From positions 129,653-193,652 of the forward strand of contig KN834822.1 in assembly GCA_000827265.1 (NCBI GenBank): 64,000 nucleotides of DNA, in the 5' to 3' direction. Position 1 is the stretch's first letter. Every line of letters begins with the position of its first letter. Below the pieces are notes generated by a model. That model had not been told where the DNA came from. It made no database searches and saw nothing but the letters and a program-made list of their open reading frames with translations. The position numbers and the translations under genes were made by a program. Below, piece after piece: positions 7,761 through 50,043 of this stretch. The stretch is from Collybiopsis luxurians FD-317 M1. Taxonomy: Eukaryota; Basidiomycota; Agaricomycetes; Agaricales; Omphalotaceae.

Positions 7761-7959
7761 TATGGATGATCGGATTATCTGCAGTGCTGACTGGCAGCCT
7801 GCATTCTCAATCGGCCTCGAGGCTCAACCGCTCAAGCATGGCATGTTGATGCTGTAATAAGTTCCAGCCAATTTTGAAACAGAGGCGCCAGATTATCCGG
7901 CTACTTCACCCTTGCCCATTTCGTCCCTTTGCATTGTGCATTTCTCTCCTCGCTTGCGC

Positions 7960-20479: not shown

Positions 20480-21440
20480 GCTTTTGACACCTCAGCCAAG
20501 CAGTGTCTGGAATAGCTTCAGGTGCAGATTCATCTACTTCCTTTATCATCTCTTCTTCTTCAGTCCCATACATGTCATTGCTAACATCCCTCTCCTCCTT
20601 AGTAGGCTTAGCAAGTGATTTAGGCCCCCCGAGTACTGACACCATGCATACATCTGCAAGTGAGCCTACTTGTACCACTGCCTTATCCACCACCAACTCC
20701 ACCTCCCCAACATCCCAACTTCCACTTCCCTCAACAACCCCGCTACCCCTCCCACCAACTTGACTACCTCCTCTGTGTTCACAGCATTGAGTCAAATGCA
20801 TCCTCTACCGCTAACTCAAGTTCATCCAGTTCATCCTTCTCAAGTTCTACAGGTGCAAGTTTGAGCAGCACTGGTTCTAGTGCAGCCAGTATCATGTCAA
20901 ATTTGAGCAGCACCCTCTCTCCACCTCTCTCCAAGCCACCATCACAACCACTGATGCCGACACCAATGGTCAACATCTCATTACCATCATCACCACTAAA
21001 TCTGGTGTATCAGCTGGGTCTGTCATCACTACTGCTTCCTCCTCCAGCAAGAACATCCATTTATCAGGTTTAAGTTTGAAATTGAACATAGGAGAGATCA
21101 TTGGAGGTGTAATAGGTGGTGTGTTGGGGGGTCATTGATTGTAAAATTGCCGTGCTGTTTCTTGTGTTGAGGAGTCATTGGATAGGAATTTTAATCCTGA
21201 TAGGACTGTAAGAGCTGATGGTGGGGGAGGAAGAGGTGGAAGTAGAGGTGGAGGAGGTGGGGTGGGGGAGAGTTTCACCGATATGAGTGAGACATGTGGG
21301 TACGTGTATGCATATGGGGGAGGGGAGAAGGCCAAGATGAAGTAGCTGGCAAGGAGCAAGTCAAGTGTTGGAGAAGGAAATGGTGGTGAGTGAAGGTGAG
21401 GGTGAGGGTAAGGGTACATCATTGGATATTCCTGTGGACA
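20480..21440 (+). pseudogene. mucin-like single-pass membrane protein, disrupted
   Basis: Ser/Thr/Pro-rich sequence in shifting frames (SSTSFIISSSSVPYMS, then SSSSSSFSSSTGASLSS, then TTASSSSKN). It is followed by LNIGEIIGGVIGGVLGG plus a hydrophobic run and a juxtamembrane RNFNPDRTVRADGGG. This order (glycosylatable stalk, Gly-rich membrane helix, NFDPDR-like tail) is typical of fungal single-pass surface proteins of the sensor or mucin kind. At least three frameshifts are seen. The cytoplasmic tail is cut at 21443 by the retrotransposon; Gly/Met-rich frames at 36290-36400 might be the rest. Confidence 0.55.
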
Positions 21441-21442
21441 GG

Positions 21443-22071
21443 TGTTATGCCCTACGCTATTTTTTCCGCTCTTTCCAACCACTACACTCACCACATGACT
21501 CGATAATAGTCTTACCAATCAATTCGGCTCTCCAAATCTGACACACATTTCACGAGGCGGACTAACCAGTTGCTCATTCCAAACTTCTATTCACAAGACC
21601 ACATGTCTTCCCGCAGAGTATAAAAGCCTTGTACCTACATCTCTCACAATAATGCTGTTATTACCTGAACTATCTTGATCTGTATTGTTTCTGTTCTCTT
21701 GTTCACTAGTCTATAATATTATTCTGCTTAACACCAAGTCGAGCAAACCCCATTGACACCGAGTCACTGGCATATCCACTTCTCACTTGTCGAACTGATT
21801 GACAAGACTATTTGACTGCCGTAGCCTTTTGAATATTCCGTCTCGTAGGGTAAATGGACACCAAGTCACGAACCTCCCAAGTCAACCCTCGTTAATACCG
21901 TCTTAACGAGTTCTTTCAATATACTATTTCTAGTTGCACTGAGCTACTAGGTTTATTATTTGACACTCAAGGATCATTCCTCCACATCCAATACCAAACC
22001 TGTACAGGACTCGTTCACCTGTTGTACGTAGCGACTCCCCATTGCATATTCTGTCTCAGCTGTGGTATAAT
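21443..22071 (+). repeat. 5' LTR
   Basis: Begins TGTTATGCCCTACGC and matches 35307-35935 along its length. It may extend to 22076, where TTAACA closes an inverted repeat with the initial TGTTA. The pair differs by roughly 30 substitutions in my hand comparison, nearly all transitions. No clear primer-binding site was recognised after it. Confidence 0.85.
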
Positions 22072-22079
22072 TAACAGCA

Positions 22080-25000
22080 TTCTCTCCATCACTGAGATGT
22101 CTGGGGAACCTGCGAAACATTTTGTAAGTGAACAAGAAAGACGGCGTCAAGAACAAGAATGCCAAAGAGCAGCGAGAGCCACAAGGTTCCAGAGAAGAGA
22201 GGAGTGATGTGGAGCTTCTACACTGGATGACCGCTCAGTTTCATCAGCACCTGCGAGAGGTGCCATACCCTCAAGAACGGGGGAAATTTTGGAACATAAT
22301 GATAGAAACCCATTTGACCTGGAAAATCCTGTTGAACATGAGTCTCCTCATGTTCTGGGACACCTGGTCTTGACACCATATATTTTGAGTTGCTCCCAGT
22401 GAGGTCAGCCATATCATATGGCAGCGAGAGCTGACTCGAGGCTAGCCATGAGGCCAACACAAAGTGCCCCAATAACACCCGAGAAAGGAAGGGAACAAGA
22501 AACAATTCATTTATCGGAATTAACTCATTCCCCGGAAGATCCTTGAGGCTTTAATGTGGGAGTCAGCTCGACATGCCCCTTCCACACACCAACTCATCCT
22601 GAGAACGAGGATTATTATGAAGATATTGGCATATCCCCAATGACACGATATACATCTATAGGAGCGAGACACAAGGTCATCTCCCCATTAGAACATATCA
22701 GATGTCCACTTCCTCTCACACCAAGAGAAGGAGAATCTAAATTTGCATTGCAACAATCAGAACGAGAGACAAGTTGGGGGTTATACTCGTTGGGGCCACT
22801 CTCATTAAGGGGCCCACGGTCTCCATTCAATTTAAAACAGTCTACTCCGATAGTAGAAAGCGACGCTATACAGGCTCAGGGATTGTTGAGCCCAATCCCC
22901 GATATAGGTAGAAGAACTGTCTCGTCGCTGGAGCAAAGCAGTCCGTTACCTGCTCCTCCAATGACAGAAGAATTCATGAAGGAGACACAGAATTGGAACC
23001 ACGAGAGTTCCTTAATGTCCCCTCCCTATCAGAATGTTCGTGTCATACTGTCAACAGAATTAACATATCAATTGGTTGATTTACTTTAAATCAATCAATG
23101 CACACGTTTCGAATTAATAAAGGCAATGCAATATTATATTCGAATTATTAATGGTCGAGACCCAGAAATGAAGGACAATTTCTGGGTACTAGCTGCCTAT
23201 TTTCAGAAATGTCTAATGCAATGACCTTCCCAGCTACCTAATGGAATAAATAATGAAATATTCCAGTTGAAAGAAGTATATGAGGGAGCCCTATGGCTAT
23301 CACAGCTGATTATGGATCCCAAATGAATGGAAATGGTGAACGAGGCCACCATGAGGTGTCTCGAGTCAATACAAAAATCTCGAATCGATTTTCCACTCAA
23401 TACAATAGTGGATAACAAAGAGAGAAAAACGCTGAACTCTCCTACATTATCACTATTAGATAAAGTGGAACAAGGACAGTCCGCGAGAGCAGACAACCTT
23501 ATTGGGGGTTACAGTTATACCAGTCAATTTCGGGACCAGCAGAAAATAGCTCAGGTGGCAAAGGAGTATTGTAGATCTATGGGAAATACTACTACTCCAA
23601 GTTATGAGGATCTGGAAGAGTCGAGGCAACTCCCACCCACTGAACTAGACTGCAGGCTGCTAATAGTACCCGAAGAAAGGGGTGAACACCAGGTGAGAAC
23701 AGCTGACAGGGTTTGGGAACTCAAACCCTCCTCAGGAAAGTCTCGAAAGGAGGAGAATGAATTCTTTTCAGAAAGAACTGCGAGACATTTGGCATTGCAA
23801 AATGCCAGCGACACGCTGATGAGTGCGATAAATCCTCAAGACAAGGATATTCACCTAGCGAAGCAGTACAAGGAGAGAATCCATGGAGATGTGGGAGGCT
23901 CATGGGTACTAAGAGCCCAGATGGAATCAGCGACAGATGAGCCAGAAGTTGCTATGACCACAGGGGATCTTCATACAAGTCTCGAAACCCAAACCAAGCA
24001 GGAGATTTTCTCTCCCAGAGCAGAACATTTGCAAGCTGGAAGCTCAAAAGTACATATTGGAGGTGAAATTCCTCTCAATGCAGCTCTACAATTGGAAAGA
24101 TGGGCTGCCTGAGACAAGTATGCTGTATCGACGACTCGTTTTGCTAATGAATCTCACCCTGTGGGTCAATATCCTGAACAAACAGTGACAGAGCCCAATT
24201 TGGGATGCTCATTATGGCCGAATCACTTGGGATTCAGGACTGACAGTCTGACATATCATAGAAGAGAAACACCCAAAACTTTCCATGAGAATAATCAGTT
24301 GGAAGGACCGGGTTGGAATGCAAGGGGTTTGGTGAATTCCCCAAATACCACCAGACCTGGAATTCCTTTCTCATCTTGATATTCAGATCCTGGAAACACG
24401 GCCCGAGTTGGTGAACAGCAAAACCAATGGGAGACGTCGGGACCAGGTCAGGTAAAATGGTGGAATATGGCATATGCCCCACCCTCAGGGGAAAGGAACA
24501 AATTCGAGAATGAAGGATTTAACTTCGTGAGAAGTTGAGATGACTGGGATCTCTCATTTTCCGAAGACCAGCTTCGCCCTTCAGCTCTCAAGACTCATCA
24601 CCCAATGCCCCCACTAGAGAAAAAGGAATTCACCCCCCTACGAAACGTAAAGGGTAGAGGGAAAGTGGTTAATCCTTTCGCTAGGGAATTGAGTCGCCAG
24701 ACTTCCGAACCACCGAGAATCACAGAAGTCCCCCCTCAACAGCCTGCAGTTCAACAAACAGTGCATGTCCCACCACCAGTAGTTGTGGAAACCATTCCGC
24801 AGGCTGCAGGATTCACTCCACCTGTATTTACAGCTGCTCCTAGGCAATACATCCATCTGACTGGCAGAAATTTTGACTCAATACCTGCAATTCCACATAG
24901 AACACCAGGACAAGTAACGAATGATTATCACCCTATCGTCTCGACGTGTCAGGAATCTGTGAGAGTTCCAGCTGAACAATATTGGAGATCGGGGACTCGA

Positions 25001-26530
25001 GAATATAGACCCTATGTAGCGGAGCCGATATATGACTACTCGAATCGTGCCAGTACCTACAGAGGGTACAGGGTAGCAGGAGCTCCAGGAGGAGCTCCAG
25101 GAGGACCCCCATATGGAGGAGTCACGCAGACAGGAGGAATTAGTGATGGAAATTTGGAAAGAGAAAGAGGTAGTAGAAATGGCAGTTTTAGAGGGGGATC
25201 TGGAGGTGGTGGACCAGGGGGACCAGGGGGACCAGGAGGACCAGGTAGCCCAGGAGGACCACCCAACGATCCTGACGATTGGGGTTCAAATCACGACGCA
25301 TATTGGCACCCGGCAAATGGATGGGTAGCTGTACGAGGCCCCAGAGGCGAGAGAGGAGAACTGGGTCCTGCAGGACAAGATGCGAGTCAGATTCTGGAAT
25401 TCGATCAGCAAAAAGATTGATTAAATAAGGAAGCAAAACTCAATGTCAAAAAACCTGACCCTTTTGACAGTTCTGATAGGTGGAAATGGGAACCTTTCCT
25501 CTCGCAAGTCCATCGCACTTTCATGGCCAAACCTACTATCTACGAGAACAACTCAGATAAAATTGGTTTTGCTGTCTCGTATCTGACAGGGGCAGCAGCT
25601 ACTCACTACAATAATTTGCTGAAACAGGAAGAGGCTGGGATCCCCATCCCTGCTCTCCATACTTGGATTGATTTTGTCACAGAATTCACATTGTATTTCA
25701 GATTATTCGATCCTGCATGAGACGCACAGGTGAAACTGGCCTGGATCAAACAGATGGACAATGAATCATTTGCGACATTTATTATTCAATTCCAGGAATA
25801 TGCATTCAAGATGGGATACAATGACACGGCATTAGTAGCAATGCTCTGAGGGGCGGTAACAAGGAGTCTCAACATGACAGTAGCGGCTCAAACTCATCCC
25901 CCTCAGAATTATCCACAATGGGTACAGCAATTCCAGGAGTTGGACAATTCGATTCATGCAACCAATGCAGCTCATTCTCATGGAGGAAATTCTGGTTTCG
26001 GGACATATAATCCTATGGCCCCATTGAGTCCTCAAAACTCTAACCCGCAACAAGGATCCAATAGTAATAACCCCCAACAGGCAGGGGATCAACAAGGTAG
26101 GAATCAAGATAATTGGACCACTTAACAAAGAGGAGCTGCAGCTTGGGACAGTAATGTAAATTCGGACAATATTAGTGGTATGGTATATGGACAATCTGAA
26201 GACTTTGCGAGCACCTCGAGTCAGAATGGAAATAGTGGAGAAAGCTTAGAAAATCAGGGAGGAAACAATGGAGTCTCAAAAAACCCAGGAGACGAAGAAT
26301 TCCAATGGGCAATTTGAGCTGCCAGGACCCCTGAGCAAGTCGAGGAGTTCCATTGACATCGTAAACTGGGACTCTGCTATAATTGTGGTGGATCAGATCA
26401 TATTGGTAAAGATTGCAAGAATAGGGAGAATTGGGACCCTCCAAAAAATGGAACTTCAAGTATAAACAATCAATGAAGTGACCAGTTGAGGGCTGCAACC
26501 TTTACTCTAGAAGGGGACCCGCCTAACGAC
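22080..26530 (+). pseudogene. gag: Gag region with collagen-like linker and zinc knuckle
   Basis: Open stretches separated by stops form one degenerate Gag coding region. From 22130 to 24110 it is hydrophilic with no clear domain. At 24605-25420 it becomes Pro-rich and then a Gly-Gly-Pro collagen-like repeat (25190-25265). The Gag capsid-like domain follows from about 25440 (KPDPFDSSDRWKWEPFL, TYLTGAA-like region, FATFIIQFQEYAFKMGY), with TGA codons where Arg is expected. A CCHC zinc knuckle lies at about 26370-26430 (CYNCGGSDHIGKDC). Gag coats the element RNA. The long N-terminal part is unusual, and its boundaries are uncertain. Confidence 0.7.
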
Positions 26531-27035
26531 GAGATTTGGAATGTCGAGATAGAAAACGACTCAGGAAAAGTGGAGGGGATTCCAGAGACACACTGAGAGC
26601 AGCCTGGAATCCAAAAAACCCTGCTCAAGCAGTCTGTCATGGGGCAGTAATAGAAAAAACATCCCCAGCTCGTCTCTTGTCTTGCTCTAACAACTCATTT
26701 CTCATCTCAACATGTTTCCCTTTCTCTGATTCCAAAAATCTAAGCTATAATACTCTTATTGATTCAGGCATGACTCGTTCTTTTATCAATAAAAACCTTG
26801 CAGAAAAATTCCCAAAGAATATCTCCAATTTAAATACTCCAATTCCACTTGAATTATTCGATGGTCAACCAACTTTGGTAGGGGATATAACAAAAATCTT
26901 TAAAGATACTATCAGCTTCGCCGACGGTTCAATTCAAACAGTCAAATTCCTAATAACCCAACTACACCCAACAGCTCCTATCGTGTTAGGCTTACCATGG
27001 CTCAAAGGATTCAATCCTGAAATAAATTGGAAGGA

Positions 27036-27882
27036 TTTGACTTTGACATTCCAAGGAAGAGAATGAATTTCAGCTTCACTGGTTGATTCGTTCACTGGTA
27101 CATGGAACTTGAATACTAGCGAGATGCAGGATACCTCAGTCCCTGACTCGAAACACAAATCAGCTTATAAAGAACAAGAAAATGTGGATGTAGACTCGTC
27201 GGTTTTGGAATTCAATGAATGGTTGCTTTATACAAATTGGGTTCATGATTACGACAAGGATCTCGAAAAATGGAAAAATAAATATAATATAGGGGACAAT
27301 GGAAGTGGATACTCCGAGAAAGCATTGAAAGCTTGGGCAGAAAGGATTGACGAAAGAAGTTCGAAACTGCCAGCATACAAGCAGAAATGGAGGTGGATAT
27401 ATAAACAAGTTGGAAAATTGCATCAGGATTCTATTCCACAAGGCCTGCTGACAAGGGTATTAAATATCTCAAAAACCTCTGCACTCTAACAACGGAGAAA
27501 ATGTACGAAACAAGGGATGAAGATAGGAAAACCCGAAAAGGTCGAAAGGAGAATGGGTCCAAACCTCCCAGGCAAGGCAGTAAGTCTCATCAGTGCAGCT
27601 GCAATGGACACTATAATATGAGATGGGATGCCTGCCTATTTCCTGCATATCACCACAGTCTTGAATCAAGTGAATAATGATGATACCACTAATACAGAAA
27701 AATCTGCAATTCATGAGTCGATTTGAGGAAATAGGGAAGCTACAGAAAAACTTCCGACAGAAGCAGAGACTGGAGAATCTCAAAAAGACAAAGAAGAGAT
27801 ACTCAAACATGTTCCCGAGAAGTATCGAGACTTCTTGGATGTGTTCTCCCCAGGAGAAGCGAAGGTCTTACCTCCACACCGT
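27036..27882 (+). repeat. left copy of 847-bp duplicated pol segment at gap
   Basis: This segment, ending exactly at the N run, is repeated at 27903-28749 with the same length and a few percent differences, mostly transitions. See the gap entry. Confidence 0.95.
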
Positions 27883-27902
27883 NNNNNNNNNNNNNNNNNN
27901 NN
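27883..27902. other. assembly gap (20 N)
   Basis: Twenty undetermined bases. The 847 bp before and after are near-identical and collinear, so the left contig ends, and the right contig begins, in the same sequence. This fits an unmerged overlap or two haplotypes better than a biological tandem repeat. Confidence 0.95.
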
Positions 27903-28749
27903 TTTGACTTTGACATTCCAAGGAAGAGAACGAATTTCAGCTTCACTAGTTGATCGTTCACTGGTACATGGAACTTGAATACTAGCGAGACACAGGATAC
28001 CTCAGTCCCTAGACTTGAAACATGAATCAGCTTATAAAGAACAAGAAAATGTGGATGTAGACTTGTCGGTTTTGGAATTCAATGAATGGTTGCTTTATAT
28101 GAATTGGGCTCATGATTACGACAAGGATCTTGAAAAATGGAAAAATAAATACAATATAGGGGACAATGGAAGTGGATACTCTGAGAAAGCATTGAAAGCT
28201 TGGGCAGAAAGGATTGACAAAAGAAGTTCGAAACTGCCAGCATACAAGCAGAAATGGAGGTGGATATATAAACGAGTCAGAAAATTGCATCAGGATTCTA
28301 TTCCACAAGGCCTGCCAACAAGGGTATTAAATATCTCAAAAACCTCTGCACTCCAACAACAGAGAAAATGTACGAAATGAGGGATGAAGATAGGAAAACC
28401 CGAAAAGGTCGAAAGGAGAATGGGTCCAAACCTCCCAGGCAAGGCAGTAAGTCTCATCAGTGCAGCTGCAATGGACACTATAATATGAGATGGGATGCCT
28501 GCCTATTTCCTGCATATCACCACAGTCTTGAATCAAGTGAATAATGATGATACCACTAATACAGAAAAATCTGCAATTCATGAGTCGATTTGAGGAAATA
28601 GGGAAGCTACAGAAAAACTTCCGACAGAAGCAGAGACTGGAGAATCTCAAAAAGACAAAGAAGAGATACTCAAACATGTTCCCGAGAAGTATCGAGACTT
28701 CTTGGATGTGTTCTCCCCAGGAGAAGCGAAGGTCTTACCTCCACACCGT
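27903..28749 (+). repeat. right copy of 847-bp duplicated pol segment at gap
   Basis: Starts directly after the N run at the position equivalent to 27036 and runs on into reverse transcriptase without a break at 28750. Confidence 0.95.
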
Positions 28750-31721
28750 CCGTACGATTTAAAAATCAAGATGGAAGGAGACTCAGCCCCTCCCTTTGGG
28801 AAACTCTATAACATGTTGGAAATGGAGCTAAAAGCCCTAAAAGACTATATCAATGATATGCTAGGGAAAGGGTTTATTAGAGCCTCCAACTCACCTGCTG
28901 GGGCTCCAGTTCTATTTGTAAAAAAGAAGGATGGAAGCCCAAGGCTTTGTGTTGACTATTGGGCCTTAAATTGAATCACAAGGAAGAATAGGTATCCCTT
29001 ACCCCTTATAGGCCCACTTGTCAACCAACTATGAAAGGCAAAATATTTTACAAAACTCGATTTGAGAGCAGGATATAACAATGTCCGAATAGTGGAAGGC
29101 CACAAGTGGAAAACAGCGTTTCGTATGCAATACGGATCCTACGAAATGTTGGTCATGCCTTTCAGGTTAACAAATGCCCCTTCGGCTTTCCTATTTTTTA
29201 TGAACGACATTTTCCATGATTTACTGGATGTATGCATGGTTATTTACTTGGACAACATTCTCATTTATTTGGATGACAAAAAAACCCATGAGGAACAAGT
29301 CCGAAAGGTACTACAAAGGCTACAAGACAACCACCTACATGCGAAACCAGAAAAATGCAGTTTTGATACTGACACAGTTGAATATTTGGGGGTAATAATA
29401 AATCCCAATGGGGTGTTGATGGATCAGTCCAAAGTCAAAGCCATAACATCTTGGCCGGTTCCACGGAATATAAAAGAACTGCAGTCATTCTTGGGTTTTG
29501 CAAATTTCTATCGCAGATTTATTGACAACTATAGCGGCATAACGAAAGCCCTAATGTCACTACTGTGAAAGGATGCCATTTGGCATTGGGACAAGTTGTG
29601 TCAAAGGTGTTTCGATTTATTAAAAGATGCCTTTACACATGCCCCAGTGCTATGACATTTCGACCCAGAACTTCCGATTATTCTGGAATGTGATGTGTCG
29701 GATTGGGCAATAGCGGGAATATTGTCTCAGCTGGAACCGAAAACTGGAGAAATACATCCAATTGCTTTTCATACTAGGTCCATGATACCAGTGGAAATAA
29801 ATTACAATATTTACGACAAGGAGCTACTGGCTATTGTGGAATGTTTTAAAGTTTGGAGAGCCTATTGTGACGGTTCGAGATTCCAAATCCAAGTTTATTC
29901 TGATCACAATAACCTGCAGTGGTTTACGACTACCAAACAGCTGTCGGCGAGACAAGCGAGGTGGTCAGAAGCCTTATCAGGATTCGACTTCCGAATCAAC
30001 TATAGACCCAGAACTTTGGGAGCAAAACCAGATGCTTTGATGAGACGAGCAGATGTATACCCAAAGAAAGGAATTGATAGGGACTCTGCTAGAGCAGGAA
30101 GAGAGCAAATATTGATTCCTCCAGAACAACTCAATGCAGCATTGCTTTTGAATGAGGATTTGTTATTAGAATGGATTCGAAAGGCAGAACAAGACAAATT
30201 CATGCGAGACACCATAAAGCAGATTTGAGAAGGGAAGATTAAAAATGTGGTATTCAAAAATGGGTTACTTAAATGACAAGGTCATATATATGTCCCTAAC
30301 GACACAAACCTTTGACGAGACGTACTATCTGCCTATCACGATCACGCACTCAGAGGACATCCAGGTGAGAAGAAAACAAAAAAGATACTCAATCAGTTGT
30401 TCTTTTGGAAAGGAAGCAGCAAGGACGTACATCACTACGTACAAAGCTGCCATACTTGTATAAGATCCAAGGCTAGAAGAACTCTCCGATATGGGAATCT
30501 GAAACCTCTACCCATTGGGCAAAGACCCTGGAGCTCAATTTTGATGGACCATATAGTTCAACTCGCGAAAGCAGGAAAGGAACAATTTGACGCAATCCTA
30601 GTAGTAGTAGATCGGCTCACGAAACAAGCCATCTATATTCCCTGTCACACAACAGACACTGCAAAGGATTTCGCAAGACTATTCCTCGAAAATGTATTCT
30701 CAAAACATGGGCTACCAGTGGATATTGTCTCGGATCAGGGAAGCTTGTTCATCTCCCAGTTTTGGAAGGAATTGTGTAAGATACTTGGTATCGAGTCTCA
30801 TCTCTCGACAGCATATCACCCTCAAATGGATGGGCAGACAGAGAGAACTAATCAAAGCCTCGAAGGATACCTAAGAATCTATATGTCTTATGACCAAGAT
30901 GACTGGGATGCCTTATTACCTATCGCAGAATTTGTATACAACAACACTCCCCATTCAACTACAGGATTAACACCCTTCTTTGCAAATAAAGGATACCATC
31001 TGAAACTTTCAATTAACCTATCAAAGGTGAACGACTCAGAAGCAAACCAGTATGCTACTGAATTAAAAGAAATATACAAATATTTGAAACAACAAATATA
31101 CAAAGCGAACGAGGCAGCAGCGAATCAGTTCAATCGCCACCATGCCGGAAATCCCAATTGGAAAAAGGGCAACCAAGTCTGGCTGGACATGGGTAACATC
31201 CGAACAAGAAGACCTACCAAGAAATTGGATCACAAGTGGACAGGACCCTATACGATACTCGATAAAATAGGATCTCATGCGTATCGACTTGAGTTACCGG
31301 GGGACCTACAACAAATCCACAATGTATTCCATGTCGATAGACTAAAACCCCACCACACAGATCCTTTCCAGCGAGTCGTATTGCCACCTCCACCAATCTT
31401 CATTAAAGGAGAACCGGAATATGAAGTCGAGTCAATAAAAGACAGTTGTCCAATGGGAGAAATGGACAGAGGAATCCAGTACTTGATCAAATGGAAAGGG
31501 TATGACGAGGAGTCCTGGATTCCCTGGAAAGGTATGGTAGGAAGTATTGATTTAATTTGCGAGTGGGAGAAAGCACATCCGAGGAAATGAAAGTTACCTC
31601 TTGAGCTCCTCAAAGAACTTGAAAGCCTAGCCCTGTGAGACGAGGAGGAAAGGGAGTTGAGACAAGCAGCTGAAGCTGTCATTTAATCGGGAGAAATGAC
31701 TCTCAAAATTGAAACCTCAAC

Positions 31722-31737
31722 CTTAAAGGGGGGGTAA
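31722..31737 (+). promoter_or_regulatory. internal polypurine tract-like sequence
   Basis: AAAGGGGGGGTAAAAG lies about 135 bp after the pol stop, where a Ty3/gypsy polypurine tract (plus-strand primer site) normally sits next to the 3' LTR. It shares GGGGGGGTAA with the tract at 35294-35306. Between the two lies the antisense gene module. Confidence 0.55.
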
Positions 31738-31892
31738 AAGCAATACTTCAAGTTTTCATTTCCAATTTCTCGACACGTTTCTCTCTATTATTATCAAAAA
31801 TCATAACAAATTCATAATTCCATTTCAGGGAAATAAAGCATACAGTGGGCATAGATTGGGATATACAGGTACAGAAGGTTGGAACAGAAGGA

Positions 31893-32836
31893 CTAATCAA
31901 AGGACGACTCAATTAATTCATCATGTTCGGCTCGAACGTCAAAAGGGATTCCAAATACTTCCTCCAGTTCCCGGGCATATAAATCCTCAACACGCTCGAT
32001 CTCCATCTGTTCCCGTATATCCTGCAGGGTCAGAGCCATATGGAGGCTGGGATCTGCCAATTCATCTTCATTCTTTTTGACCAATGAATAGGTCAAAGGA
32101 TCCTCCCCGGTGCGAACAAAGTAGGCATTAGGGTGACCAGACAAAAAGATCACTACAGGAGATGTATTGTGAGTCTCGATGAGAGTACTGGGAAGGGAAG
32201 TGGTATTGAGAGAAGGAACAAAATTGGATAGGGAATCGGGAGTGGAGTCACTCTTTGTCTCGAAAGCAAAGGAGTCAGAGGAAGGACCACCCCATACATC
32301 CATAGGGGCAACAGTGCTAGTAGTCACTGGTTCCAAGGACAGATCTCCAATATTCAAGAGACGACAAAGCTCCTTGTAAACGCCGTGAAATCGAGATAAT
32401 TCAACTCCATGCCCCTGGGCCAAAGCTTCAGCAGCAAGTTGGAGGTTGTGGGACTTGATGAGAGAGTCTTGCAACTCCTTAATAACCCGATCTTGCTCCT
32501 TAATGGTCACTTCAGCAGTTTCATGAAGATATCTGATTTCCTGGGCGTCTCACTAGGAAGGATCAGTGAGCCATGGAAACCCTACAACAAGTTGAAAAGA
32601 CATACAGATGACTCGAGCATCTTCTCTTCAAATTCCTGCATGGTTCGACTCAAGAGTTCTCGCAACTCATGAATCTCATCGGATTGACCCTCGACAACCC
32701 TCTGCAGTTGCCCAAACTCACAACGAGCTTGGTTCACAAGGATGTCCTGATCAGATACGACTTGAGAAATACTCTCAGCAGCATCAGTGAGATGATCTAG
32801 GAACAAAGCAGAGTCAAAGGGAGAAGGGGAAGCCAT
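31893..32836 (-). pseudogene. antisense gene B inside retrotransposon (coiled coil)
   Basis: Exon 1 is 32836-32606 and begins MASPSPFDSALFLDHLTDAA; the intron has GTATGT and CTAG ends; exon 2 is 32552-31893. Together they make 297 codons with phase kept. The only interruption is TGA as the first codon of exon 2, where CGA is likely. Heptad-like charged helices (VVEGQSDEIHELRELLSRTM, then IKEQDRVIKELQDSLIKSH) predict a coiled coil for the first 130 residues. The second half is acidic and Ser/Thr-rich and ends ...HDELIESSFD. I do not recognise a family. It lies downstream of gene A in the same antisense direction, between pol and the 3' LTR. Possibly captured host sequence or an element-specific accessory protein. 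Confidence 0.6.
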
Positions 32837-33145
32837 GACAAGGGAGGATCTTGAAATGAGGATAGGGAAATAGTCTCGAAAAGTGCCCTTTTATTGAAAC
32901 AAGGATGCCCGATATGAGCCTAAATAGGGACAAAACGTGCAACCACATGCATACACCTCATGGAAAATTTTGAATACTTCGATTCTCAGGAGATCTCTTA
33001 TTTTGAACCCGGGGCAATTTCTTATTCACACAAAGGAGGGGCCCAAAAAAGAAAGAAAGGATTTAATTCGGAAGGAAGTACAAAAAGAAGAATTTCGGAA
33101 TAGGAGGGAGCTATCTAGATACAAGAAGTTTACAAGCCAAAAGTC

Positions 33146-35109
33146 CTACAAACTACTAGAAGAAGGTTTTGAAGGCAAGGCAGCAGCAAACTGCCCTCGA
33201 ACTGACTCAAAAAGCTGCCAAAGCTGGGCAAGTTCTTCATCTCGCGACTTCGACTCTTCTGCTGCGACTCGACAGGCCTCTTCACTGGCAGCCAATTTCT
33301 TCTTCAAACTCTTGATCTTGCTCTTTTGCCCCTCCAACGCCTCTCTCAATTGCTGAATCTCCTACAAAAAATTCCATTAAATCCTAAGTCAGTCGAACAA
33401 GGAGGAAGAAACTCACTGATGACAGAACATCACCCTTGAAATGCCTCACGAAGGATTTCAGACAAGTTAGCTCCTCGTCCTTCTCCTCCAACTGACCGTC
33501 CCGTGAAGACACCTGTTCTTGCAAATGGAGATTCTTGGTCTCCAAACGATCTGACTTCCGCAACAAAGCTTGATACTCCCAATAGGCTCAGAGGAGCTCA
33601 TCTTGCTGAGCATCAATGATATTGGCGGAGGATAAATTGATCATCGAGAGAGACTCGACAAACTGGGTTAACCTGGAATTCAAGAAAGGGGTGGGAGGTT
33701 TGGAAGAGGGATGTTTCTATGAAGGGGATGCAGAAACAATTAGTGATACAATGAAAGGCCGGAAATGAAGGAGTTACTCACCATTTGCTCCTCAAGATCA
33801 TTAAAAATGCCTTGAACCAATCCATCCGCCAAAGCCCAGAGATCTTGCTCCATCATTACCTTACCGCAACCGGACAACAGCTCAGCAACTCGCATAACGA
33901 TGCGTTCAATCGCAGTGCGAATCACTAGAAACGGAGTTAGTTAAGATGACTGTACAAGTAAAAAAAAAACAACACTCAAAAAGAAAAACTTACTGTCATC
34001 TCGAGATGGGATAGTACCGTCGGAAGGAACTGGTTTGACGAGAGGTTCAAAAAACCAAGTTTTCAAACCGGAAACCTCACAATAAGATCGCCTATCGTTG
34101 ACTTTCCATACGACTGCAGGCTTCGTCGGAGTGGGAGCAGGCGCTGCAGGAACAAGAGCAGAGGTGGAAGGGACCTCCTCTGGGTAGTCCAATTCCATGG
34201 ATTCCATAGCGTCAGGAGCCTCCATCTTGACATCAATATCTACGGGGTCACGAACGACCTCCTTTCCTTTGTGAGACGGAGCTGGAATGACTTGCTCGCA
34301 ACTCGGCTCCCCTAGAAGCTCCCTCTCTTGCCGAAGGAGCTGACTCTTGCAAAAGGCAGTCGAAGAGACAACTAGAATGATGATGAGCACTTATCCTATC
34401 ACGATACACTGGACTTACCTGCTTTTCTTTTGCCTTCTGGAACCTTTGGTCTATCCGATGACAATCCTAACTCCTCAGGATGACTACCATAGTAAGGAAC
34501 ATTTCGTAACCCCATTGTTAAAGCAGTCCATTCCTCATCCCGAATAGTAAATAATCCCTGACTTGAGACAAAACGATATGCAATGATGAGGGGGAGTTTG
34601 GCAAGGATATGGAATTGAAGGAGTCAAAAGACACTCTTGAAGGAACAGAACTTCTTGCTAGAAGGATAGTTCACTTTGCAAGTGGCACAGGACAAGGAAT
34701 TGGGGTGAAGGGAGCAAGTGGATTGAAGGTTATGCGATGCGCAGTATTCGCAAGATGGGTAATGTCTGAAAATGTCCTTCCACTCATCAGCAGCTACCCT
34801 ATCCAAGACCTCGGAACTCGAATTGGCGAGATATGCATCTTCGTAGATGGGCTGGAGACCGGTAGGAAGGATAGAGGGAATGCGATCTGTAATAGAAATC
34901 GAGGGATAGCTGAGACGTGTACTGCACTCAAAGGCCACACATCGCATCTTCTTGGCTGCTGGGGGAGCAGAGGGAAGAGCATTGGAAAATGGAACCATGG
35001 ATGCCGATTGAAGGGACTGCAAAATTTTGATAATCAGTCGGGGTTGTGACCCTCCTGAAGTACTTGATGACACGATAGGCTGGTCGGAAAATGCTTGAGA
35101 AGACAACAT
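33146..35109 (-). pseudogene. antisense gene A inside retrotransposon (Cys-rich plus coiled coil)
   Basis: Five exons by my model: 35109-34419, 34371-33994, 33924-33782, 33716-33417 and 33361-33146. All have GT and AG ends and matching phases, totalling 1728 nt (575 aa). Only two in-frame stops occur, both TGA where CGA fits (34624-34626 and near 33586). The N-terminal part has a Cys cluster (CEYCASHNLQSTC, then CATC and KKFCSF) like zinc-binding motifs common in Agaricomycete proteins. The middle is Pro/acidic (EEVPSTSALVPAAPAP). The C-terminal 170 residues are a coiled coil (LETKNLHLQEQVSSRDGQ, SKIKSLKKKLAASEEA). The frame is open upstream into the LTR, so transcription could start in the 3' LTR antisense promoter. 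Function unknown. Confidence 0.65.
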
Positions 35110-35293
35110 AGTGGTAAGAGGAAAAGAAGAAATTGACTCAAAAACCCAGAGTGCCAGCTTTATAAGGGCTTCGGACTTAGAGTTTTCGATTGAAATTCGG
35201 CAGCCGGCACATTGAAAACTCAATCTGATGGCATGGCAGTCACAACACTGTGTCGCATCAAAAGCTACGCATCCTTTTGAGGGCTCAAGGCCC

Positions 35294-35306
35294 TTGGGGG
35301 GGGTAA
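35294..35306 (+). promoter_or_regulatory. polypurine tract beside 3' LTR
   Basis: TTGGGGGGGGTAA immediately precedes the 3' LTR start TGTTATG, the expected place for the plus-strand primer of an LTR retrotransposon. Confidence 0.75.
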
Positions 35307-35935
35307 TGTTATGCCCTACGCTATTTTTTCTGCTCTTTCCAACCACTACACTCACCACATGACTTGATAATAGTCTTACCAATCAATTTGGCTCTCCAAA
35401 TCTGACACACATTTCATGAGGTGGACTAACCAGTTGCTCATTCCAAACTTCTATTCACAAGACCACATGTCTTCCCGCAGAGTATAAAAGCCTTGTACCT
35501 ACATCTCTCACAATAATACTGTTATTACCTGAACTATCTTGATCTGTGTTGTTTCTGTTCTCTTGTTCACTAGTCTATAATATTATTCTGCTTAACACTG
35601 AGTCGAGCAAACCCCATTGACACCGAGTCACTGGCATATCCACTTCTCACTTGTCGAACCAATTGACAAGACTATTCGACTGCCGTAGCCTTTTGAATAT
35701 TCCATCTCGTAGGGTAAACAGACACCGAGTCACAAACCTCCCAAGTCAACCCTCGTTAATACCATCTTAACGAGTTCTTTCGATATACTATTTCTAGTTG
35801 CACCGAGCTACTAGATTTATTATTCGACACTCGAGGATCATTCCTCCACATCCAATACCAAAACCGTACAGGACTTGTTCACCTGTCGTACGTAGCAACT
35901 CCCCATCACGTATTCTGTCTCGGCTGTGGTATAAT
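35307..35935 (+). repeat. 3' LTR
   Basis: Matches the 5' LTR over 629 bp, ending ...TGTGGTATAAT. The expected closing TAACA is replaced by AAAAT-type sequence. Nearly all differences from the 5' LTR are C/T or G/A. Confidence 0.85.
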
Positions 35936-37010
35936 AAAATACTTTCTATTCATTGAACCTGCTACAAGCTTCTAACAACAAAGGTAGTAAAGGTCCTAAC
36001 AACAGGAGGGTTGGGATATCCTTTCTGGAGGCAGAGTTGGATACAGACTTGGAAATGGATATGGACTGGAGATGCAACAGCTCATGCATCCGAATGCAAT
36101 GTGGAAGGAACAAGTTGCTGGATGAGAAGAGATGGATGATGAGCCTGAGCCCAAGACTTGAGCGGGAGCTTACAAGTCATAGTCTGGCCCTGAGTTGGCA
36201 TGGCATGTATTTGGATAGGATGTCATGGGGGGTGGGACTCTTGTGCCGAGTCTTGGACTGTATAGCTTGTTTTTCTTGTTGCTGGGATTTGCAGAATTGG
36301 AGGGGCTTGGTGGGATGGAGATTGAGGTAGGTGTGGGTATGGGTATGAGTATGGGAGGTATAGGAGGTATGGGAGGACACCAAATGGTCATCTGTCATCT
36401 GCAATGGTGTCGATGTCCACAGGTAATGGGCACAGACCTAGAGCAAATACAGCAGGGGTGAGGTACAGGTACAGGTATGGAAGACCTCCACTGTTCCATG
36501 GGTACAGCACTGATACCCCCAGTATCTACAGTGGTATGGTTTATGCATCCACCGTCTTCCTTTAATCTTTCTGGGAAATCTGCTGCATTCCCTGGGTATT
36601 TTTTGCAGTCTGAACCTGGACCTGGACTTGTACAATTGCCTTCACCTGGTGTGTACTGTGTATACTGCACATCCTGGACATAGATGGAATCTGAATAATG
36701 GAAGGAGGCTATCCAACAGTTTACTGCCTGCAGATTTGGGATCTAATGGGAATGGGAACTCAAGCTTCAAGAGGGTTTCTGCACTGATGCTGGGTCCTAC
36801 ATTGGTTGTATTGCAAATACATTCCTCTTGCTTGTGGATTTCAGTCTTTAATCCCTGCACACATTTTTTTCTTGTATTTGTTGTCTCTTACTTCAAGGTA
36901 TCTCGTACACACACACTCACTCATACATACATGCATACATGCATCTCTCATCTCAAGCACACAAATCCTGGATTTTTTCCTTGACATTATTTTGTGTTTT
37001 ACTTATCTCA
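35936..37010. other. right flank of element; possible tail of mucin-like gene, microsatellite
   Basis: Contains a Gly/Met-rich frame at about 36290-36400 (VGVGMGMSMGGIGGMGG) that could be the rest of the cytoplasmic tail of the gene cut at 21443. A simple repeat (CACACACACTCACTCATACA and CATGCATACATGCAT) lies at 36905-36945. I see no complete gene. Confidence 0.35.
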
Positions 37011-37242: not shown

Positions 37243-38254
37243 ATGAAATGCATCATTATTGCCTGTGATGGTACCAACCAATATGATGTCTCCACCAATG
37301 TCAAATGTATCTGTTATGCCCTCTCCTACTCATCCAACAGCATCAAGCAGCTTACCTTCTACCAATCCGGACTTGGACCTGAAGACCTTGGCTCAAGTGG
37401 CTTTGTTAAAGCTTATGCTCAGGCATTGGGAGAAGGGATTGATTGGAGAATTGATGAGGCTTATGCCTTTATTATGAACAACTATCTACCAGGTGACGAA
37501 TTATTGTTTTTTGGGTTTTCTCATGGAGCATTTGTGGCTCAAGTTCTTGCCAATTTTGTTGCTCAGGTTGGAATCTATCAGAATCCCCAATATGCATGGG
37601 ACTTCAGACCTGCTTTGGAGACATGCAAAGATGGTACCCTTGACAGAGATATTGAGACCTATCAATATGACACTACACAAGATGGAGAATGGGTTTTGAA
37701 GGTACATAGGGTTGAGATTGAAGTAGTAGGTTGCTGGGATCCGGTAGCAAGTTTGGGGGTTCCATGGACAGGTTCTGGTGAGGATAAACATCTCAGCCCT
37801 AGCCTTGTGAAAGGTAAGCATCATATATGTAGCATTTTGTGGCTCAAGTATCTGACAAGAGCAAATATCTAGGGATCAAACATGCTTTTCAAGCTTTGGC
37901 ATTAGACAAATATCGACATCCATTCTCACCTACATTGTGGTTTTTACCCGAGGACGCAGAGGTTGCAGAAAGTTTGTTTATGCTGTTCTTTTGTGCATCC
38001 AGAGCTGACTTAAGTACTGTGTATAGCAATTCACCTTCAACAGTGCTGGTTTCCTGGTGCACACTGCAATATAGGTGGGGGATATCACAATCAAGCTCTT
38101 GCTGACCTTGCGTTCTTCTGGATACTCAATGGCTGCAGTCAATTCCTCGCCTTCGATCCAAAATACATTAAATCAGTTGTGAACACTCACTATCAACCAT
38201 GGAAACTCAATAGTAACAGTGGCCGTTCCAGTCAGCTGGAGCATGCCAATGGGT
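37243..38254 (+). pseudogene. DUF2235 (Tle1-like) alpha/beta hydrolase, degraded
   Basis: The start MKCIIIACDGTNQYD matches the CDGT opening of the DUF2235 family. ELLFFGFSHGAFVAQVLA holds the GxSxG nucleophile motif and VVGCWDPVASLGVPW the GxWDxxxSLGIP motif. After a probable intron (GTAAGC at 37815) come IKHAFQALALDKYR and PTLWFLPEDAE, then in another frame WFPGAHCNIGGGY with the catalytic-His region, and ALADLAFFWILNG. Family members are predicted lipases or hydrolases. The blocks fall in different frames; some changes can be introns, but I could not join all of them cleanly. The stop lies in the sequence where the truncated membrane paralogue begins. Confidence 0.65.
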
Positions 38255-39121
38255 AGAAGTCACAGTGATGGCTTCTCCAAGCTGATTGCGGTCATGCAAA
38301 CAGCCTGGTTTATGGTCCAGCTGTTTGCCAGATGGGCCAAAGGCTTACCGGTCATGGAGCTCAAAGTCATGACTCTCGCTTTTGCAGCGATGAATGTCTT
38401 GATCTATCTCTTTTGGTGGGATAAACCTCAGGGGGTGGGATGTCCCATTCACATTGTGCAGAAAAATGCAGATGAAGATGTCATAGACCGACCAGGTGTT
38501 TCTCCCAAACAAAAAGAGGGAACAATAATTATTGCATGGAATTGGTTTCAAAACACCTTGGAAGATGTCTTCAAGATAGCATGCAGATTCTTGAATCAAA
38601 CCTTCAAGAGCATGCTGCTCAATGTTTTATCAGTCCCAATTCCAATCATGAACTTGTTGGTTGATTTCACAGTCACAATTACTAATTTGATCCTGGTAGA
38701 CTTCGATATTATTGGAGAATTCAAAGTGGTGTCATCATTCGAGCGAACTGCCAAGTTGGAGCCCAAAAATGCACAGGATAAATTTATCGCTTACAGTGCG
38801 GCAGTGATGTTTGGTGCCATTCACTGTGCCGCCTGGACATCCAAGTTCCCCAGTGCCACTGAGGAGGTACTGTGGAAGGTCTGCTCCCTTCTTGTGACTT
38901 ATGCTCCAGTGTATCTGGCTTTGTTTAATGTAACTGATAAGACAACTTTTAATGTGACTAAATGGCTGGAGGGATACCTTGCAGGGGTCTACATAGGTAC
39001 AATAATCTTTTACATTCTCGCTCGACTGTCTCTCATTGTCCAGCCATTTGTGGCCTTGCGACATTTGCCTCCTGGTGTGTATGAAGCTGTCCAATGGACA
39101 AACTTCATTCCACACATCTAG
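38243..39121 (+). pseudogene. multi-pass membrane paralogue, copy 4, 5'-truncated
   Basis: Begins abruptly at RSHSDGFSKLIAVMQTAWF and continues open to FIPHI at 39121, about 293 codons from the nearest ATG. The signal-like start, the first two membrane segments and the first variable region are missing, replaced by the end of the hydrolase relic. The second variable region (QTFKSMLLNVLSVPI) resembles copy 6 (QTFKGMLLDVLSIP). The frame is intact, so loss of the 5' half may be fairly recent. It could be expressed from the upstream gene's promoter, but this is unproven. Confidence 0.8.
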
Positions 39122-42501: not shown

Positions 42502-44343
42502 ATGATTATTCCTTCCATAACTCACCTTCACGCTTTAGTGGTACGGTCCGCTACTACATATGTGGAAGCGGCCAGTGCATCCTCATCGACTTCAGACTCG
42601 TGTAACGATATAAATGATTGCCGTACTCTACTTCAGATCGTCTGGAGTTGCATCAGTGTTCTTATCGCCTGTACTTGGGTCTCGGTTCACCCAAACGTAC
42701 CCGGACCTGATGACAGCTCTTGGAAAGTGTTTCGGCGCAAGATAGGGCTGATGATTATTGCTTTGATTGCGCCGGAGATGCTGGTTTTGTGGGCTGCTCG
42801 ACAATGGTTTGCGGCGAGGAAGCTCTCAGAGCGTACGTATCTTGTGTAGACATGACTGCATTGCTTACCTTTCGAGATAGGGTACCCAGGATGGACAAGG
42901 ACACATGCCTTCTTTGCACTTATGGGAGGTTTTGCACTTTACGAGGACAAAGAGTGTGTTTCTGTTTTACGATTCACGCCTCCTCACTACACCGGATGGA
43001 TTATGGCTCACTTTAGAAACTTGGAGCACCGCAGTGTCACCAATAACAATCCTCCATCCATTCAAAATGATAGCGCTCTAGCTCTACTTACTGCAGAAAC
43101 CGGTACTTCTTCCAATGATGGCTTCGAACAACACTCCAGCGCGGAGGATGATGCAGAACTCAAGGATCCCCGTTTAACTGCCCTCCATCCTCCTGTCAAC
43201 CATGATAATCCATCTACTCATGACGGTGACAGGGACGCTATCGTAATTTCCACCGACTCTAATCTCAAACCGGGTGCTCACACCGAGGACCAGAAAGACC
43301 GTCATTTGGGCACTTCCGATCCCGAGGAGGAGCTGAACAAGCAACATTCAATCAAAACCACTCCGTACATTGCTGGCAAGCTCGCCGAGTGTGATCCTGC
43401 CACCGAATTTGATCAGCGGTCATTTGCAGCCCACCTTAACCTTATTGGTAGAATTCCAGAAGCCGAAATTAAGGATCGGAGTCACAGTGACGGCTTCTCC
43501 AAGCTGATCGCGATCATGCAGACATCCTGGTTTGTGGTCCAGCTGCTTGCCAGATGGATCGAGGGCTTACCGGTCACGGAGCTTGAGGTCATGACTCTCG
43601 CTTTTGCAGCGATGAATGTCTTGATCTATTTCTTCTGGTGGGATAAGCCTCAGGGGGTGGGATATCCTGTCCGCATTGTGCAGAAAAGTGCAGATGAAGA
43701 TGTCGTAGACCCGCTGGCAGGTGCTTCTGCCCAACCCAAAGAGGGATGGATAGCTACTGCATGGAATGGGGTTCAAGGTATCCTGCATAATGTTCTTAAT
43801 GCAGTGTGCAAGTTCTTCAATCAACCCTATGAAGACATTCTATTTGATGCTCTTTCATTTCTTTGGCTGATCATCAAGGTTCCATACAACCTCACCATGA
43901 TAATCGTCGAAGTGATCATAACAGATTTCCCTGATATTGGAAAATCTGAAATGGTGCCATCATTCGAGCGAACTACCGAGCTGGAACCAAAAAATGCACA
44001 GGATAAATTTATTGCTTATGGTGCAGCAGTTATGTTTGGTGCCATTCATTGTGCTGCCTGGACATCCAAGTTCCCCAGCACTGCTGAGGAGGTATTGTGG
44101 AAGGTCTGCTCCCTTCTTGTGACTTGTGCTCCAATGTATCTGGCCTTGTTCAACATCATTAATGAGACTTTTCATATGCCTGACTGGGTAGCTGGTTGCC
44201 TTGTATTGGTTTACATAGCTATGGTATTCTTTTACATTCTTGCCCGGCTTTCTCTCATTGTCCAGCCATTTGTGGCCTTGAGAGATTTACCTCCGGACAT
44301 CTTCAAAGCTGTCCAGTGGACAAATTTTATTCCACACATCTAG
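42502..44343 (+). CDS. multi-pass membrane protein, copy 5
   Basis: Intact family member. Exon 1 42502-42832, intron 42833-42880 (GTACGT to GATAG), exon 2 42881-44343; 598 codons (597 aa). It opens MIIPSITHLHALVV. Conserved blocks as in the other copies: RTLLQIVWSCISVLIACTW, ALIAPEMLVLWAARQW, HAFFALMGGFALYED, HSDGFSKLIAIMQTSWF, LEVMTLAFAAMNVLIYFFWW, LEPKNAQDKFIAYGAAV, VFFYILARLSLIVQPF, and FIPHI at the end. The first variable region (about residues 150-280) is acidic and Ser/Thr/His-rich and predicted disordered. The second variable region (NGVQGILHNVLNAVCKFFNQ) matches copy 1 closely. No stop or frameshift is seen; probably functional. Confidence 0.87.
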
Positions 44344-48187: not shown

Positions 48188-50043
48188 ATGATTATTCCAT
48201 CTATAACTCACCTTCACGCTCTAGTGGTACGGTCAGCTACTACAGATGTGGAAGCGGGCAGTGCATCCTCATCGACTTCAGACTCGTGTAACGATATAAA
48301 TGATTGCCGCACTCTACTTCAGATCGTCTGGAGTTGCATCAGTGTTCTCATCACCTGTACTTGGGTCTCGGTTCATCCAAACGTGCCCGGACCTGATGAC
48401 AGCTCCTGGAAAGTGTTACGGCGCAAGATAGGGCTGATGATCATTGCTTTGATCGCGCCGGAAATGCTGGTTTTGTGGGCTGCTCGACAATGGTTTGCAG
48501 CAAGGAAGCTCTCAGAGCGTACGTATTTTGTGTAGACTTTTTTTGACTGCATTGCTTACCTTTCGAGATAGGGTATCCAGGATGGACGAGGACACATGCC
48601 TTCTTTGCTCTTATGGGAGGTTTTGCACTTTACGAGGGCAAAAAGTGTATTTCTGTTCTACGATTCATTCCTGACAATTATAGCTCTGCCAAGGTCCCTA
48701 TTTGGGCACACTTTGAAAACTTGGAGCGCCGTACTGTCATCAACGACAATACTCCGTCCATTCATAGTGATAGCACACTGGTTCCGCTTACCGGGCATGC
48801 TAGTATGCCTTCCAGTGATGATCTTAAACAGCCTCCTGCTGCTGACAATGAAGTAGAATCTGAGGGCTGTCCCTCGGCCCCCTCCCACACTGACGTCGAA
48901 CACGATAATCCTGTATCTAGTCATGACAACGATGATACTCTCGTGATCTCCGCTGATTCTAATCCCAAATCTGGCACTCAGACTGAGAGAGGGGAGCTGA
49001 AAGTCCCTCTTTTGGCCAGTTCCGATTTCGAGGGGCGGTACAACCAAACCCATACCACACCCACTCTATACACTGTTGGCAAGTTTGCCGAGTGTTATGC
49101 TACTAGATTTGATCGGCGGTCATTTGCAGCCCACCTTAATCTCATTGCTAGAATTCCAGAAGCCGAGATTAAGGACCGGAGTCACAGTGATGGTTTCTCC
49201 AAGCTGATCGCGGTCATGCAGACAACCTGGTTTGTGGTCCAGCTGCTTGCCAGATGGATCGAGGGCTTACCGGTCACGGAGCTTGAGGTCATGACTCTCG
49301 CTTTTGCAGCGATGAATGTCTTGATCTATTTCTTCTGGTGGGATAAGCCTCAGGGGGTGGGATGTCCTGTCCGCATTGTGCCGAAAAGTGTAGATGAAGA
49401 TGTCGTAGACCCACTGGCAGGGGCTTCGGCCCAAAAAGATGGATGGGTAGCTATTGCATGGAGCTGGCTTCGAAACATCTTGGGAAGCATCTTCGAGATG
49501 GTCCGTGGATTCTCGCGTCAAACCTTCAAGGGCATGCTGCTTGATGTTCTCTCAATCCCATCAATAACCATAGAGTTTCTGATGGACTTTGTGAACACAA
49601 TTGCCAGCGTGATCCTGGAGGACAATGCTAGTATTGGAGAATTCAAAATGGTGTCATCATTCGAGCGAACTACCAAGTTAGAACCAAAAAATGCACAGGA
49701 TAAATTTATTGCTTATGGTGCAGCAGTTATGTTTGGTGCCATTCATTGTGCCGCCTGGACATCCAAGTTCCCCAGCCCTGCTGAGGAGGTATTGTGGAAG
49801 GTCTGCTCCCTTCTGGTGACTTGTGCCCCAATGTATCTGGCCTTGTGCAACATAATTTGGAATATATATCTCAATATGCCTGACTGGGTGGAGGGATGCC
49901 TTGTATTGGTCTACATAGGTACAATATTCTTTTACATTCTCGCCCGGCTTTCTCTCATTGTCCAGCCATTTGTGGCCTTGAGAGATTTGCCTTCAGGCAT
50001 CTTCATAGCTGTTCAATGGACAAATTTCATCCCTCATATCTAG
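48188..50043 (+). CDS. multi-pass membrane protein, copy 6 (unit with intact neighbours)
   Basis: Intact. Exon 1 48188-48518, intron 48519-48571 (GTACGT to GATAG), exon 2 48572-50043; 601 codons (600 aa). It opens MIIPSITHLHALVV. Membrane segments: TLLQIVWSCISVLITCTWVS, IGLMIIALIAPEMLVLWAA, LIAVMQTTWFVVQLLARWI, LEVMTLAFAAMNVLIYFFWW, FIAYGAAVMFGAIHCAAW, LLVTCAPMYLALCNII and YIGTIFFYILARLSLIVQPF. It ends IPHI. Two variable hydrophilic regions (about residues 140-285 and 345-420) separate the conserved blocks; the second contains QTFKGMLLDVLSIP, like copy 4. Its neighbour downstream is the only intact KH gene, so this is the best candidate for the founder unit. Confidence 0.88.

Follow-up and report, generated by a model that had tools for sequence, protein, structure and literature searches.

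Introduction

Antisense accessory open reading frames (ORFs) of long terminal repeat (LTR) retrotransposons have long been described, with functions given as unknown (PMC7264820), and those lying between pol and the 3' LTR are already known from plants and from Boty-like elements. For gene23 of the maize element Grande, an upstream promoter of its own and a nuclear protein have been reported (PMC7264820), and Boty-like elements of Botrytis carry the antisense gene brtn (Zhao et al. 2011, as cited in PMC8365987 and PMC7264820). The antisense proteins HBZ and APH of human T-cell leukemia viruses (HTLV) are made from spliced transcripts, are mostly nuclear, and reduce sense expression or replication (PMC10186651), and Ty1 encodes its own restriction, which depends on subfamily sequence and is spread by horizontal transfer and recombination (PMC7055915). 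Here, we analyze a 64,000-nt stretch (the window) of contig KN834822.1 of Collybiopsis luxurians FD-317 M1, an Omphalotaceae mushroom with a 64-Mb genome, in which a Ty3/gypsy retrotransposon carries two multi-exon genes, A and B, on the strand opposite to gag-pol. That A and B are a real, selected, element-borne gene pair is almost certain. In the open-licence literature, as far as its accessible parts extend, we found neither an antisense pair with several exons described for a basidiomycete element nor an antisense gene described as hypervariable.

Results

Structure of the antisense gene pair

An earlier note on the letters of this DNA had proposed two spliced antisense genes, which lie between integrase (INT) and the 3' LTR, and both models were reproduced to the base, with every intron bounded by GT-AG. 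Gene A consists of 5 exons with 1728 nt (575 codons and a stop) and introns of 47, 69, 65, and 55 nt; gene B consists of 2 exons with 891 nt (296 codons and a stop) and an intron of 53 nt. The 575 codons proposed for A stand, while the 297 proposed for B had included the stop, so that its product has 296 residues. The exons given below follow from the gene models and a 39-copy alignment.

34419..35109, minus strand: gene A exon 1, ATG at 35109, six-cysteine cluster
33994..34371, minus strand: gene A exon 2
33782..33924, minus strand: gene A exon 3
33417..33716, minus strand: gene A exon 4
33146..33361, minus strand: gene A exon 5, TAG stop, coiled coil
32606..32836, minus strand: gene B exon 1, ATG at 32836
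32553..32605, minus strand: gene B intron, 53 nt (GT in 38 of 39 copies, AG in 39 of 39)
31893..32552, minus strand: gene B exon 2, TAG stop

The alignment holds the window copy and 38 others, which were taken from 41 matches to window positions 32000-35000 (40 of 90 candidates scored) after exclusion of two pieces on C34 (L047). Each of the ten splice dinucleotides is kept in 38 or 39 of the 39 copies. The ATG codons of A and of B are each present in 37 copies, the TAG stop of A in all 39, and that of B in 38; exon sums are divisible by three in 34 copies for A and 35 for B, and intron A2 ranges from 52 to 75 nt. Chance ORFs combined with chance splice sites are rejected by this conservation of splice sites, starts, stops, and frame, and the earlier view that such order exceeds chance is upheld.

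The window copy contains three in-frame stops, all TGA (A codons 162 and 447, B codon 78), at which CGA had been predicted to fit; CGA is indeed found there in 4, 7, and 27 of the 39 copies, respectively. Over all copies, TGA accounts for 152 of the 157 internal stops in A and 56 of the 59 in B, and 144 of 157 and 56 of 59 stand in alignment columns that show CGA in one or more of the other copies, in keeping with CpG decay following insertion. For both genes, models free of stops are present in GenBank from the same species, with 575 aa for A (P0001) and 296 aa for B (e.g., P0065 and P0069), a stronger outcome than the earlier statement that the two were once protein coding. In our reading, P0072 would be the window's own B, predicted with a different acceptor that avoids the stop.

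Transcription had been suggested to start in the 3' LTR. Each ATG is preceded, at a distance of about 50-55 nt, by a TATA-like motif in the internal region outside the LTR, which argues against such a start.

35159..35164, minus strand: TATA box of gene A, TATAAA (TATA-like match in 37 of 39 copies)
32889..32894, minus strand: TATA-like box of gene B, ATAAAA (TATA-like match in 39 of 39 copies)

Coding evidence and purifying selection

In 33 copies, the true frame of A holds 5.0 stops per copy versus 21-29 in the five other frames, and that of B holds 2.5 versus 8-27. Coding on the sense strand at the same place is rejected, the strand opposite A having 21-25 stops per copy and that opposite B 8-14 (33 copies). 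Pairwise ratios of nonsynonymous to synonymous rates (dN/dS), the calculation that had been called for, were obtained from 33 copies, after six of the 39 had been dropped for frame changes or large gaps, and came to 0.195 for A and 0.394 for B. INT gave 0.216 in the 32 copies with a complete integrase; in 26 of these, A and B gave 0.194 and 0.388, falling to 0.129 and 0.250 on codons without CpG columns. Frame controls were run on every second copy (n = 17), and the true frame of A was the lowest (0.196 versus 0.307-1.388 elsewhere). Transversions by codon position are highest at the third in both genes (0.057, 0.033, and 0.104 for A; 0.0075, 0.0047, and 0.0123 for B). Gene A is under purifying selection.

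These data also bear on whether the antisense RNA alone matters, with the proteins incidental. Transcription against gag-pol would yield double-stranded RNA, and antisense RNA is known from other elements (PMC7264820), but codon-level selection, frame-preserving indels, and splice conservation make an RNA-only role extremely improbable.

Linkage of A and B to the element

Searching at the protein level with residues 1-161 of A gave 91 rows, of which 85 were used as A loci after six short fragments were dropped; the synteny input comprised 77 of 94 B rows and 91 of 106 INT rows, the remainder being short or more distant. B lies downstream on the same strand at 73 of the 85 loci, and at 69 of them INT is also present on the opposite strand, in the antisense placement about which the earlier note had asked; four loci have B but no INT. 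The median gaps to B and INT are 2.1 and 3.0 kb. An LTR is listed upstream in 15 of 42 A loci drawn from the 85, always 197-199 bp from the ATG, the LTR matches being the best 40 of 214 candidates. Conversely, 18 of the 91 INT rows have no B row nearby; one is a full-length family member (C47:103219), and the others are more divergent families or fragments. Among the GenBank models, an A model stands within two locus tags of 41 of 51 B models, versus a mean of 0.8 in random draws.

Homologues were also found in other elements. A sister subfamily (C26, L048), with INT 81-82%, A exon 1 about 46%, and B 41-42% identical, has the same layout and gene order, and its A exons are recognizable, with neither the boundary at which exon 2 ends nor the B intron delimited. 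Antisense A homologues occur in a further lineage with INT 62-63% identical (C7:1019458-1024210, C109:111230-115777, and C2:884639-889173) and end 3.3-3.6 kb past INT, compared with 3.5 kb in the window. The C7 homologue matches the sister subfamily's A directly (26%, E 5e-7), and C7, C109, and, weakly, C2 (22%, E 6e-5) match via L049, an A-like gene at C24:378612 (C24:378450-380150) with a single frame open for at least 513 codons without stops. Like A, L049 has a cysteine cluster followed by a coiled coil at the C-terminal end, and its hhalign alignment to the profile of A has E 6e-6 and probability 85%. These homologies show deep retention of A in three element groups.

No A homologue was among the matches listed near four INTs of about 51% identity (C30, C54, C9, and C149:37527), a search for relatives in viral contigs found none, and no named species other than C. 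luxurians appeared among the 64, 57, and 66 hits of protein searches in which about 8000 candidates each were scored. Seven short proteins from jgi or ena sources match (P0105, P0112, P0116, P0118, and P0125-P0127).

The earlier note had also considered that A and B could be captured host genes, here carried as passengers. Their introns are as in host genes, and L049 is intact, with no INT of this family among the matches listed nearby (104 of 304 candidates scored), so it may be a relative in the host or may belong to another element; further distant A-like loci also lack a listed INT (for instance, C99, C26:214448, C29, and C78:195420). No clear host source was found, and these loci remain candidates for one. 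Against capture, the whole module is kept at 69 of 85 loci, A is present in three element groups, purifying selection acts among element copies, and the nearest relatives of L049 itself include the element-borne loci on C7 and C109 (37-38% identity), which together leave the passenger explanation a slim chance.

Hypervariability and exon shuffling of gene A

Synonymous divergence is much the highest in A (dS of 0.89, versus 0.14 in B and 0.20 in INT), and the variable segment has the extent of the gene.

33146..35109, minus strand: hypervariable, recombining segment, equal in extent to gene A, edges near 33000 and 35100

With CpG columns removed (37 copies), divergence is 0.13-0.23 per site in bins starting at 33.0-35.0 kb and 0.02-0.06 elsewhere within 30.8-36.0 kb. 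The listed copies are 90-95% identical to the window in reverse transcriptase (RT) and 88-96% in gag, these being the best 40 of 114 and the best 40 of 81 matches, from which the most divergent may be missing; in some of the same elements (e.g., C149 and L045), A exons 1 to 3 differ at about a third of sites. With one cut-off of our choice, exon 1 falls into 6 classes, exon 2 into 6, exons 3-4 into 8, and exon 5 into 3, and these are combined in 18 ways among the 39 copies, whereas B and the A-B spacer form one class each. The trees of exon 1, exon 2, exons 3-4, and B reject one another (approximately unbiased test, largest p 2e-4, 38 copies), and similarity between blocks falls off over about 1 kb. 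Within the stretch compared, hypervariability and exon shuffling are confined to A. The plateau over A, together with the conflicting exon trees, indicates that old, constrained A variants have been reshuffled within an otherwise homogeneous element.

A neutral origin of this diversity deserves serious weight, though we lean somewhat against it: old lineages may have recombined while recent sweeps homogenized the flanks, or the segment may mutate faster. Such an origin agrees with the introns within A, whose divergence comes close to that of third codon positions (0.23-0.31 versus 0.35), with dS raised along the whole of A and dN/dS at or below 0.34 in every window, and with the pervasive recombination; it fits less well with the edges of the segment, which match gene A and not gag, RT, INT, B, or the LTR, and with the maintenance of divergent A classes under constraint. 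The variability of A looks as if its exact sequence matters in a contest among copies or with the host.

Predicted proteins

The cysteine cluster noticed earlier in A reads C-x2-C-x8-C-x8-C-x2-C-x10-C in P0001, and five of the six cysteines are invariant or at least 90% conserved among 31 aligned sequences. It is followed by an acidic, proline-rich middle and a C-terminal coiled coil, at which Pfam gives near-misses (residues 446-558) and heptad periodicity is seen; the predicted helices 417-498 and 504-565 are the most confident part of a low-confidence model. The model of B has a long N-terminal helix (residues 9-125) and a conserved C-terminal part without an assigned fold. Periodicity, Pfam near-misses, and the two low-confidence models support the prediction, made in the earlier note, that both A and B are coiled-coil proteins. 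We read a KRK motif as a putative nuclear signal. The TRP28 domain (PF04195) was absent from Pfam scans of A and B.

The element and its setting

The Ty3/gypsy element is flanked by the 5-bp repeat ACAGG and extends from 21438 to 36006, repeats included.

21438..21442, no strand: target-site duplication ACAGG, left (same letters as 36002-36006)
21443..22074, plus strand: 5' LTR, part alignable to the 3' LTR (632 nt aligned, 94.8% identical)
30397..31590, plus strand: integrase and C-terminal end of pol (Pfam SH3_Tf2-1, rve, and H2C2)
35307..36001, plus strand: 3' LTR (matches of most copies stop at about 36001)
36002..36006, no strand: target-site duplication ACAGG, right (from the sequence)

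SH3_Tf2-1, rve, and H2C2 exceed the cut-off in the Pfam scan of the integrase, and a chromodomain (PF00385) at its C-terminal end scores 21.8 bits, under the cut-off of 25.1. The 5' LTR aligns over 632 of the 695 nt of the 3' LTR, its final part (window 22060-22150) differing in sequence, and the ACAGG repeats agree on both flanks despite this divergent end. The window copy is rearranged, because its pol carries a direct duplication (27145-27444 and 28012-28311, spacing 867 bp) that is 95% identical over the listed 300 nt and 99% identical over another stretch.

The element is inserted within a tandem family of similar ORFs (1728-2882, 7912-9780, 15299-16414, 38219-39121, 42922-44343, and 48613-50043), most of which end in ...ARLSLIVQPFVALR...; a Pfam scan of two members gave no match. 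Near one of them, the ORF at 37243-37872 matches the Tle1-like phospholipase catalytic domain (PF09994, formerly named DUF2235). ORFs at 60573-62599 with PH_5 and CNH domains are probably one host gene, for which the domains suggest a Rho-GEF-like product.

Discussion

As a whole, we lean, by a narrow margin, toward an account in which A and B are selected antisense accessory genes that act as nuclear coiled-coil regulators. We infer that both are transcribed, from integrated copies, by their own promoters and against gag-pol. The sense genomic RNA would be unable to splice out their introns, which read CT-AC on that strand; because A and B are antisense, the introns are not spliced from genomic RNA and survive reverse transcription, and their presence implies that A and B work from integrated DNA. 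The proteins would be assembled through their coiled coils in the nucleus, A binding nucleic acid via its six-cysteine cluster and B serving as the more conserved partner, and their role would be to tune transcription of the sense strand or the number of copies, along the lines of HTLV HBZ/APH, gene23 of maize Grande, or Ty1 control. Regulation of the element is a plausible reading by analogy with such systems, and we hold the chances that A and B serve in it to be evenly balanced.

In this regulatory account, the diversity of A would reflect selection on specificity, and subfamily-specific self-control as in Ty1 would favor rare A types. Carried further, A may be a self/non-self locus, its protein repressing or marking elements of its own type while rare types escape, with new types arising by exon-by-exon recombination among co-packaged genomes; this extension is doubtful. 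If true, it would make the family a eukaryotic counterpart of phage immunity groups, built on an antisense spliced gene.

A and B may instead aid replication, through particle assembly, nuclear import of the preintegration complex, or target-site choice. Long coiled coils in both proteins, the retention of A with pol over deep divergence, and selection on A about equal to that on INT (0.194 and 0.216) would suit such a role, but an antisense gene expressed only from integrated DNA would be an odd source of a particle component, and gag, RT, and INT are homogeneous in the listed copies while A is not. We consider a replication role rather unlikely.

Several results weigh against the regulatory account or parts of it. 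None of the 39 aligned copies has a stop-free A, and six have a stop-free B. Neither B nor INT is listed near 12 of the 85 A loci; at three of these, an LTR nonetheless stands 198 bp from the ATG. B was not detected among the matches listed for the lineage with INT 62-63% identical. The frame control for B fails when taken alone, with a sense-strand frame at 0.390 and the true frame at 0.411 (17 copies); as this control does not discriminate, the case for B as a coding gene is built on indels that keep the frame, on its splice sites and stop counts, on the intact models, and on the homologue in the sister subfamily. Scans against Pfam and PDB gave no assignment for A or B, and the structure models of both proteins are poor (mean predicted local distance difference test scores of 48 and 50). 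A Zn2Cys6 assignment (PF00172, Zn_clus) was rejected for A, with no hit in the Pfam scan; a genome search with Zn_clus had no A locus among its 30 matches (97 candidates scored).

A cognate site for A was also sought by co-variation across the 3' half of the element (30.8-36.0 kb, 37 copies, 200 permutations). No stretch there strongly co-varies with A type beyond linkage, which argues against the self/non-self locus, the boldest form of the account. Exon 1 co-varies with 35.2-35.6 kb (r 0.34 and 0.29), dropping to 0.08. Weaker signals link exon 5 with 30.8-31.4 kb (r 0.25-0.27, a level reached in 3-4 of 200 permutations) and with the 32.6-kb bin in B (r 0.38, 0 of 200), and exon 1 with the 31.6-kb bin (r 0.21, 6 of 200).

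The family is an unusually clean case: the strength of selection can be measured, comparison extends over three groups of elements, and hypervariability is limited to a single gene. It turns a vague "regulatory role" into testable predictions on specificity, copy-number control, and escape from host silencing.

Compared with known systems, HBZ of HTLV-1, which has a leucine zipper, and APH of HTLV-2/3/4 start in the 3' LTR (PMC10186651), whereas the TATA-like boxes of A and B are internal; no sequence link of A or B to HBZ/APH was found. The Ty1 factor is derived from Gag, unlike the antisense spliced genes A and B (PMC7055915). Boty-like elements with brtn share with this family a fungal LTR element to which an antisense gene has been added, but their host is an ascomycete, and the likeness is one of description (PMC8365987, PMC7264820). 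The plant aORF-3R elements (Grande gene23, rice RIRE2, and Silene Retand) likewise have, in most copies, a coding region on the antisense strand that is placed between pol and the 3' LTR (PMC7264820, PMC11963269); introns are not mentioned in the text of PMC11963269, and A and B lack the TRP28 domain (PF04195) that marks the Retand lineage. In contrast to these plant elements, the C. luxurians family carries two genes that together contain five introns, lacks the TRP28 domain, and lives in a fungal host, and one of its genes is hypervariable and exon shuffled.

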